A DNA stretch of 64,000 nt from Tabrizicola piscis (GTDB lineage: Bacteria > Pseudomonadota > Alphaproteobacteria > Rhodobacterales > Rhodobacteraceae): positions 3,844,001 to 3,908,000 of the forward strand of contig NZ_CP034328.1 of assembly GCF_003940805.1 (NCBI RefSeq), written 5' to 3'. Numbering within the stretch: position 1 is the first letter of the stretch; each line of letters starts with the position of its first letter. The notes below the pieces were generated by a model that did not search any database, had not been told where the DNA came from, and saw only the letters and a program-made list of their open reading frames with translations. Both the position numbers and the translations under genes were made by a program. Positions 23,607 through 41,404 of the stretch are shown here, piece by piece.

Positions 23607-24713
23607 TCAATACGTCGGCTCCAGCCGCACGTTGGCGGGCAGGGCGTGGCGTTTGGCCGGAATGGTGTAGAGCCTGGCAAAGGTGAAGGCGGCTTTCGCG
23701 CCCGCAGCCCAGGTTTTCAGCTTGCCCGCGACGCCGCCCTGCCGTTTTGCCGCATCCATGGCGATGAAGGCCCGGTTCATCCGTTCCAGGTTCGGGATCC
23801 AGCGCGGGTGGTCGATGTCCAGCTCGATCGGGAAGATCTGCCGGGCGATGGTGGAGGTCTTGCGGAACACCTCCTGGTCGTACCAGCTGATCTCGACGCC
23901 GAGGGCCTTGTGGAATTCCGGCCGGGCATGGTCGCGGACCCACATCGTCGAATAGACCGCCGTCAGGAAGAACTTGATCCAGAGCTTGTTGACGAAGCTT
24001 TCCGTCAGCTTGGGGTCGGTCTTCATGAGGAGGGCAAAGGCCTCGCCATGGCTGAACTCGTCATTGCACCATTCGCGGAACCACTTGAAGATCGGGTGGA
24101 AGCGCTGTTCGGGATGCGCCTCAAGGTGGCGGAAGATGGTGATGTAGCGGGCGTAGCCGATCTTTTCCGACAGGTAGGTGGCGTAGTAGATGAACTTTGG
24201 CCGGAAGTAGGTGTATTTCTTCGCCTTGGTCAGGAAGCCAAGGTTCACCGCCACCCCTGCTTCGCGCAGGGCGTCGTTGATAAAACCGGCGTGGCGGGCC
24301 TCATCGCGGGCCATGTAGCTGAACAGCTCGCAGATGTCGGCATTGCTGCCGCGGCGTTTCATTTCTTTGTAAAGCACGCAGCCGGAGAATTCGGCGGTGC
24401 AGGAGCTGACGAGGAAGTCGATGAATTCACGCTTCAGGGGCGGGTCCATCCCATCCCAGTCGACGGCGTCCCAGGCGTCGGTCTTCTTGAAATGGCCCTT
24501 GTTCGGGTCCGATTTCATCTGGGCGATCAGCTTGTCCCATTCCTTGCGGACCGGGGTGACGTCGATGCGGTCCATCTCGTCGAAGTCAGTCGTGTAGAAG
24601 CGCGGGTTCAGCAGCGTGGTTTCCGTGGCCATCGCGGTGGTGTCTTGCGGGGCCATCCCGGCGGCGACTTCGGCACCGCTGTCGGGGTAAAGGTCCATCG
24701 GTGTTGCGTTCAT
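23607..24713 (-). CDS. acsF: Mg-protoporphyrin IX monomethyl ester oxidative cyclase (aerobic)
   Basis: The 368-aa di-iron oxygenase closes the fifth ring of bacteriochlorophyll using O2. The di-iron ligands are in the helices SSCTAEFSGCVLYKEMKRR, MARDEARHAGF and WCNDEFSHGEAF. The start MNATPMDLYPD at 24713 overlaps the stop of the upstream 98-aa protein gene (ATGA-type junction). It makes the pathway possible in air, and matters here because the anaerobic cyclase gene bchE carries a frameshift. A sequence gap with hairpins separates it from puhE. Confidence 0.95.
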   Translation of the reverse strand: MNATPMDLYPDSGAEVAAGMAPQDTTAMATETTLLNPRFYTTDFDEMDRIDVTPVRKEWDKLIAQMKSDPNKGHFKKTDAWDAVDWDGMDPPLKREFIDFLVSSCTAEFSGCVLYKEMKRRGSNADICELFSYMARDEARHAGFINDALREAGVAVNLGFLTKAKKYTYFRPKFIYYATYLSEKIGYARYITIFRHLEAHPEQRFHPIFKWFREWCNDEFSHGEAFALLMKTDPKLTESFVNKLWIKFFLTAVYSTMWVRDHARPEFHKALGVEISWYDQEVFRKTSTIARQIFPIELDIDHPRWIPNLERMNRAFIAMDAAKRQGGVAGKLKTWAAGAKAAFTFARLYTIPAKRHALPANVRLEPTY

Positions 24714-39716: not shown

Positions 39717-39734
39717 TGTCAACATAAGTTGACA
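39717..39734. promoter_or_regulatory. PpsR/CrtJ box upstream of bchE
   Basis: TGTCAACATAAGTTGACA, a near-perfect full palindrome, lies 15 bases before the bchE ATG. Together with the FNR box it would give combined oxygen control of bchE and probably the downstream bchJ-bchG region. Confidence 0.85.
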
Positions 39735-39749: not shown

Positions 39750-41404
39750 ATGCGCATCGTCTTCGTCCATCCCAACTACCACTCTGGCGGAGCCGAGATT
39801 GCCGGGAACTGGCCGCCAGCCTGGGTTGCCTATCTGGCCGGGGCGCTGAAGGCCAAGGGGTTTGATGACATCCACTTCATCGACGCGATGACGATGCATG
39901 TCAGCGGCGAAGACCTGCGGGCGCGGCTGGTGGAACTGCAGCCCGATATCATCGGCGTCACCTCGATCACCCCGTCGATCTATGCGGCGGAAGAGGTGTT
40001 GAAGCTGGCGGCGGACGCGATCCCGACGGCAGTGCGGGTGCTGGGCGGCGTGCATGCCACCTTCATGTTCCGTCAGGTCCTGACCGAAGCGCCTTGGGTT
40101 GACGTGATCGTGCGGGGGGAAGGTGAAGAGATCATGCTCGCCCTTGCCGAAGCGGTGCGGGATGGCCAATGGCCCGCGACCCGCCGCCAGATCAAGGGCC
40201 TCGCCTTCCTTGACGGGGATGAGATCGTGGCGACCCAAGCTGCGCCGACCGTCAAGGATCTTGACAGCATCCGCCCCGACTGGACGCTGATCGACTGGCC
40301 GCATTACATCTACATCCCGCTTGGCGTGAAGGTCGCCATCCCCAACATGGCGCGGGGGTGTCCCTTCACCTGCAGCTTCTGCAGCCAGTGGAAATTCTGG
40401 CGCGACTACCGTGTGCGCGACCCCAAGAAAGTGGCGGATGAGATCGAAGATCTGGTGACAAACCACGGCGTCGGCTTCTTCATCCTGGCGGACGAGGAAC
40501 CCACGATCAACAAGAAGAAATTCGTCGAATTCTGTCAGGAACTGATCGACCGCGGCCTGAACGACCGGGTGAAATGGGGCATCAACACCCGCGTCACGGA
40601 CATCTACCGCGACCGTGACCTGCTGAAATTCTATCGCAAGGCGGGGCTGGTGCATGTGTCGCTTGGCACCGAAGCGGCAGCGCAGTTGAAGCTGGATCTC
40701 TTCAACAAGGAGACCAAAGTCGAGGAAAACAAGGAAGCCATCCGCCTGCTGCGGGAAGCGGATATATTCACCGAGGCGCAGTTCATCGTCGGTCTCGACA
40801 ACGAGACGCCGGAGACTTTGGAGGAGACCTTCAAAATGGCATGGGACTGGCAGCCCGACCTTGCCAACTGGTCGATGTACACTCCTTGGCCTTTCACGCC
40901 CCTCTTCCAAGAGATCAAGGATCAGGTCGAAGTCTTTGATTTTTCGAAGTATAACTTCGTCACCCCCATCATGAAGCCCGCCGCGATGACGCGGGGGAAC
41001 TCCTTGACGGGGTGATGAAGAACTACCGCCGGTTCTACATGCGCAAGGCCCTGTTCCACTACCCTTGGCGCGGGACGGGGTTCCGGCGGCGCTATCTGCT
41101 GGGGTGTCTCAAGGCCTTCATCAAGGCCGGGGTCGGGCGCACCTTCTACGATCTTGGCAAGGCCGGTTACTGGGGCCCGCAGACCAAGGGGCAGGTCGAT
41201 TTCCACTTTGACGAAACCCGCACGATTGCCGAAGCACAAGTCGCCGATTGGGAAGCCAGCGCCGAACGCAGCCGCAAGCACAAGGAGCGGCAAGAGGCGG
41301 TGCGCGCCCAGATGAAGGAACGCGCCAAGGACCGGGCGGTGCCCGACCTTGGGCCGATGGCCTGCGGCGGCGGGCGTGAACAGATGCAGGAACCGGCAGA
41401 GTAG
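39750..41404 (+). pseudogene. bchE: Mg-protoporphyrin monomethyl ester anaerobic cyclase with one-base frameshift
   Basis: The first frame (39750-41015) encodes a B12-binding-like N-terminal region and the radical-SAM core with [17 protein letters not shown] (CxxxCxxC). It then ends prematurely after MTRGNSLTG. The rest (41012-41404), starting [17 protein letters not shown], continues in another frame. Adding one G to the G5 run at 40993-40997 would restore [17 protein letters not shown] and a protein of about 551 aa. Either the gene is inactive or the run was misread in sequencing. BchE makes the fifth ring without O2; AcsF (23607-24713) does it with O2. No other stop or shift is seen. Confidence 0.88.

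Follow-up and report, generated by a model that had tools for sequence, protein, structure and literature searches.

Described systems closest to this locus

As described in an excerpt of PMC13142503, BchE converts Mg-protoporphyrin IX monomethyl ester to protochlorophyllide without oxygen, using cobalamin and radical SAM. Absence of bchEJ from the cluster or from the genome is stated to be common in aerobic anoxygenic phototrophs, and is ascribed there to little use in oxic life (PMC12654162, in the portion consulted); a table in PMC6052148 likewise marks bchE as missing from some species of Rhodobacteraceae. The consequences of losing the gene have been described in Rba. sphaeroides, in which a bchE deletion made only Zn-BChl a, and Mg-BChl a was undetectable until ccoP, encoding a subunit of the cbb3 oxidase, was removed as well (excerpt of PMC4944227). 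In a paper on Stagnihabitans, the arrangement of bchE inside the cluster and acsF at its periphery is called uncommon in phototrophic Alphaproteobacteria, and the excerpted text of PMC6199135 concerns aerR constructs. A different kind of described case is technical: deletion errors of minION assemblies have been linked to homopolymers of 2-8 nt, with A/T runs the worse ones (PMC12007338, in part).

We have examined bchE in the window, by which we mean the whole 64,000-nucleotide stretch of Tabrizicola piscis DNA under analysis. The locus resembles the bchEJ losses treated in the excerpt of PMC12654162 in that acsF is kept and bchE cannot be read in one frame; it differs from them in that the genes are absent there, whereas in this genome one finds the gene together with its promoter boxes and both of its frames.

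A one-base deletion divides bchE into two frames

This genome has a single bchE match, and it is split (Table 1). The initial annotation placed a one-base frameshift at a G run within the gene, and alignment to relatives confirms it, coordinates included: the run reads GGGGG in this genome and is one G longer, a G6, in G028, G016 and G013, and a 211 bp DNA alignment with these three relatives places one single-base gap in this genome, within the run. G025 (locus L019), also a near relative, has GGGGCG at the site and likewise carries one additional base. The upstream frame begins MRIV and is normal over residues 1-416, ending in AAMTRG, after which come NSLTG and a TGA stop; the product has 421 aa, where about 551 would be normal. 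The downstream frame (ORF 41012-41404) runs to QEPAE. A search of the plasmid collection in near mode returned no match.

Table 1. Coordinates of the features discussed. Positions are those of the window unless prefixed C1, and the names of the two promoter boxes are our assumption.
Feature	Position	Strand	Remarks
acsF	23640..24641	-	open; TIGR02029, 524.2 bits (cut-off 192.5)
FNR-like box, TTGAC-N4-ATCAA	39684..39697	+	also upstream of bchE in G028 and G013
PpsR/CrtJ-like box, TGT-N12-ACA	39717..39734	+	also upstream of bchE in G028 and G013
bchE, upstream piece	39750..41015	+	ATG to premature TGA (41013-41015), 421 aa
G5 run	40993..40997	+	one base shorter than in G028, G016 and G013
bchE, downstream piece	41000..41404	+	other frame, normal stop; ORF from GTG at 41012
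TGATG	41013..41017	+	premature stop overlaps in-frame ATG of the downstream piece
Terminase_6N gene (phage-type)	C1:4025618 (L140:17618)		one-base loss, G run; G013, G028, G015 and G022 all have one more base and are open
SBP_bac_5 solute-binding protein	C1 ~51,555 (L184 ~11555)		one-base loss, G run; against G013 alone
ntrC	C1 ~380,680 (L224 ~680)	-	one-base loss, C/G run; against G013 alone
TIGR03862-family flavoprotein	C1:2238640 (L254:8640)	-	one-base loss, G run; against G013 alone

The further proposal that the two frames join to a normal BchE also holds, as they divide the NCBIfam BchE profile TIGR02026 between them: the upstream piece covers profile positions 1-417 (708.9 bits, cut-off 481.35) and the downstream piece positions 421-497 of 497 (109.2 bits). 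No single open frame spans the whole profile, and the upstream frame falls 80 profile positions short. Apart from the split, the locus is like other members of the family. The upstream piece has the Pfam B12-binding (PF02310) and Radical_SAM (PF04055) domains, and the radical-SAM motif, said earlier to be intact, is found in frame within it as CPFTCSFC; the three cysteines of CxxxCxxC (C204, C208 and C211) are present here and invariant in 20 relatives. The two promoter boxes, for which the same had been claimed, are borne out as sequence and are as in the intact G028 and G013. We take TTGAC-N4-ATCAA to be an FNR-like box and TGT-N12-ACA a PpsR/CrtJ-like box. The split bchE (39750-41404) and the open acsF lie within the same 64 kb.

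The part of the protein behind the break is strongly conserved. In an alignment of 20 close BchE proteins, 42 of the 50 residues at 422-471 are invariant and, because this stretch is missing, a BchE ending at residue 421 is very probably inactive, as judged from sequence conservation. An AlphaFold2 prediction of an intact relative (P0001, from the 20-row alignment A1) had a mean pLDDT of 61.6, with values below 50 over residues 343-487, and is uninformative on the lost part. A PDB sequence search gave five chains, all of them distant and of the cobalamin/radical-SAM or B12-binding type, including TokK and OxsB.

bchE is intact in relatives that also have acsF

We read 97 BchE loci (L003-L019 and L032-L111; some genomes are in both sets) and found a full-length bchE, by a rule combining start motif and length, in 93 of them (539-595 aa). 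The four that fail this rule are L019, L062, L104 and L081. The L081 protein has 556 aa and a different start motif. L019 (G025) has a frame change near residues 31-44; it comes from a low-coverage bin and is apparently the same contig as L062 (coverage 2.8). A TGA seen inside the G013 match was set aside, as the query had started ahead of the ATG; read from its own ATG, the G013 gene is full length.

Among the 31 same-genus genomes searched (G001-G031), acsF was found in 20 and a close bchE match in 17; completeness is 80-81% in the three where acsF was found and bchE was not. Every other same-genus genome that carries acsF at a completeness of 90% or more, 16 in all, carries bchE as well, at full length (L003-L018). 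This co-occurrence (16/16) contrasts with the review PMC12654162, according to which bchEJ is missing from the cluster or the genome in most aerobic anoxygenic phototrophs. We found no sibling strain: among the best 120 of 8000 candidates scored, the top protein match was 96% identical (full length, 551 aa, one member).

Neither piece of bchE shows decay

We calculated Ka/Ks for each piece separately and found values of 0.043 upstream and 0.043 downstream against G028, 0.078 and 0.062 against G016, and 0.049 and 0.020 against G013. On this measure, with close relatives as the reference, purifying selection is strong on the two halves and to a similar degree. With three more distant relatives as the reference, the downstream piece evolves faster in two comparisons (0.171 and 0.181, versus 0.075 and 0.116 upstream) and slower in the third (0.073 versus 0.117); we infer that the two faster cases reflect divergence of a variable tail, not relaxation in this strain. 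Since neither piece shows decay, the mutation is either very recent or absent from the cell.

Other genes in the assembly are broken in a similar way

The survey set 1.304 Mb of this genome against stretches of its relatives at the DNA and protein levels; coverage at the protein level came to 748,748 bases (651,978 + 96,770), and the mirror search took in 936,519 bases of G013, G028, G022 and G015. Five interior one-base losses were found in this genome, all at G/C runs: those in bchE, in a terminase gene, in the gene for an ABC solute-binding protein, in ntrC and in a flavoprotein gene (Table 1). In the 203 kb of aligned coding DNA compared at the outset, the only isolated interior one-base losses backed by more than one relative were those in bchE and Terminase_6N. 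By resemblance, we take the latter to be the terminase of a gene transfer agent. The break in ntrC removes the C-terminal ~60 residues, with a net 12-base in-frame difference nearby. The flavoprotein is a 383 aa ORF in G013, and its break lies in nearly the same sequence context as that of bchE.

Sequence identity to relatives is about as high behind the breaks as before them. For bchE it is 94% behind versus 96% before (G028); for the terminase the corresponding values are 96/88 (G013), 95/87 (G028), 80/84 (G022) and 86/88 (G015), and for the solute-binding protein, ntrC and the flavoprotein they are 80/76, 98/91 and 88/88. All five breaks therefore look very young.

A looser first pass yielded 37 rows in this genome and 29 in the relatives; seven junctions of this genome were aligned, and the identity limits were then tightened, with more DNA taken in as well. 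The tightened pass gave 16 rows for this genome, made up of seven for the genes reported (bchE 1, terminase 4, solute-binding protein 1, ntrC 1), one for an antisense ORF at bchE, and eight with an N-terminal second piece only, which were taken as start-site or intergenic effects (three aligned, one inspected). An extension of the survey added one row for this genome, the flavoprotein. Gaps scored as lying within genes were rechecked with proteins at eight sites and otherwise judged by eye from position and sequence.

Under a rule, set after the rows had been seen, that admits a break only if its second piece is C-terminal, the mirror search found none in its 936,519 bases except a row mirroring the terminase, a post hoc comparison of small numbers. 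The relatives' rows left out under it numbered 6 + 1 in the tightened pass and 2 in the extension, of which eight have an N-terminal second piece and one is the terminase itself. If events were spread evenly, the binomial chance of all five lying in this genome would be about 0.017; with bchE, the starting finding, set aside, the chance for all four would be about 0.039. Extrapolation to the whole genome predicts roughly 23 to 29 breaks of this sort.

A residual assembly error is the best-supported reading

Of the three readings offered by the initial annotation, sequencing error has the best support: four further genes are split at G/C runs in this assembly, and no such loss was seen in the relatives surveyed. 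Because these genes are split in a similar way to bchE, we consider it most likely (probability about 0.65) that the missing G is a residual homopolymer deletion in the assembly. Base calling at G/C runs would have dropped single bases, a cause that we infer from the pattern, and the living strain would most likely carry an ordinary, intact bchE. The pattern calls for no new biology. Fresh nulls of one kind, two dozen or more by extrapolation, are hard to explain by mutation when mutS and mutL are open in this genome and the genes hit are as conserved as ntrC; leftover homopolymer deletions explain the same pattern easily. The likeness to the residual deletions of long-read assemblies (PMC12007338) extends to the loss of one base, the homopolymer, the several genes affected, the intact relatives and the lack of downstream decay. 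It differs in that the five sites here are all G/C and not A/T, and minION may not be the platform used for this assembly. This genome has few A/T runs of 5 or more.

This reading needs to be held with some caution. The run-length spectra do not point to a systematic undercall: this genome is not short of G6 and longer runs, the density of G6 being 44.7 per 100 kb as against 34.3 in G013, 46.7 in G028, 31.0 in G022 and 36.7 in G015, and an intact CGGGGGGAA remains within bchE itself, at 40114. An error would therefore affect only some 1 in 100 runs. G/C runs are also favoured sites of real indels, and the events are few, with three of the five resting on one relative each. We presume that none of the five broken genes is plainly essential, so that none by itself proves an error. 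A screen for in-frame stops gave 33 rows for this genome, 22 of them within the first 100 residues, versus 30 for the relatives, and there may be real nulls of other kinds among the 11 that lie beyond residue 100.

A real, recent loss is less probable

A real bchE null could have arisen recently by slippage at the G run; bacteriochlorophyll would then be made via AcsF in the presence of oxygen, with no closure of the fifth ring in its absence. We regard this as rather unlikely, with several points in its favour. The assembled sequence itself shows such an allele, acsF is open and the bchE match is single. The invariance of 42 of 50 residues behind the break makes the truncated protein very probably dead, and the absences reported in the excerpts of PMC12654162 (aerobic anoxygenic phototrophs) and PMC6052148 (some Rhodobacteraceae) fit a biological loss. 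Against it stand the equal Ka/Ks of the two pieces versus G028, the full-length gene in 16 same-genus relatives (with the one exception of the low-coverage bin L019) and the four similar breaks elsewhere in the assembly. Furthermore, AcsF alone need not suffice, since the Rba. sphaeroides bchE deletion had no detectable Mg-BChl a (PMC4944227, in part). Thus, of the earlier suggestion that the strain relies on AcsF, the open acsF stands, and the real loss of bchE is possible and less well supported than a sequencing error.

Were the break real, formation of ring E would depend on oxygen. The strain would then be a fresh case of a phototroph dropping the oxygen-independent cyclase and keeping AcsF, caught before decay, and would offer a natural test of whether AcsF is sufficient in this genus. 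More generally, the case is a caution against equating a gene loss seen in one assembly with physiology when other conserved genes also break at homopolymers.

Recoding, reinitiation and phase variation

Readings other than an artefact and a real null are improbable even when pooled. In one, the ribosome would slip back by one base on GGG in the G run (translational recoding) or reinitiate at TGATG, and a working BchE would result, whole or in two pieces; we consider this very improbable. As read from the sequence, GGG in the P site could re-pair after a slip of one base, but no canonical tandem slippery heptamer is present at the run, and a conserved recoding signal would be unexpected because full-length relatives encode BchE in one frame. 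The premature stop does overlap an ATG of the downstream frame; however, reinitiation there would lose residues 417-421, and TGATG derives from normal Gly-Val-Met codons, so that the overlap would be by chance. The specific version in which the G5 allele is real and reinitiation gives a 421-residue part and a C-terminal part of 129 or 130 residues is hardly credible; the cobalamin/radical-SAM part and the C-terminal part would have to associate into a working, or partly working, anaerobic cyclase.

Phase variation, that is, reversible slippage at the G run toggling bchE, had been raised by the initial annotation and is extremely improbable: the run is a homopolymer in which a change of length ends the protein before a conserved stretch, but it has only 5-6 G, it is interrupted in 66 of the 93 full-length relatives (G6 in 26, one unscored), runs of 7 and 8 G occur elsewhere in the genome, and no sibling strain in which the other state might be seen was found, the top protein match being 96% among the matches listed.

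Among the loci of relatives, one bchE is interrupted by other means. In L104 (JACXUX010000042.1), from a Rhodobacterales metagenome bin, the gene has an in-frame stop that leaves a frame of 252 residues, with no frameshift.
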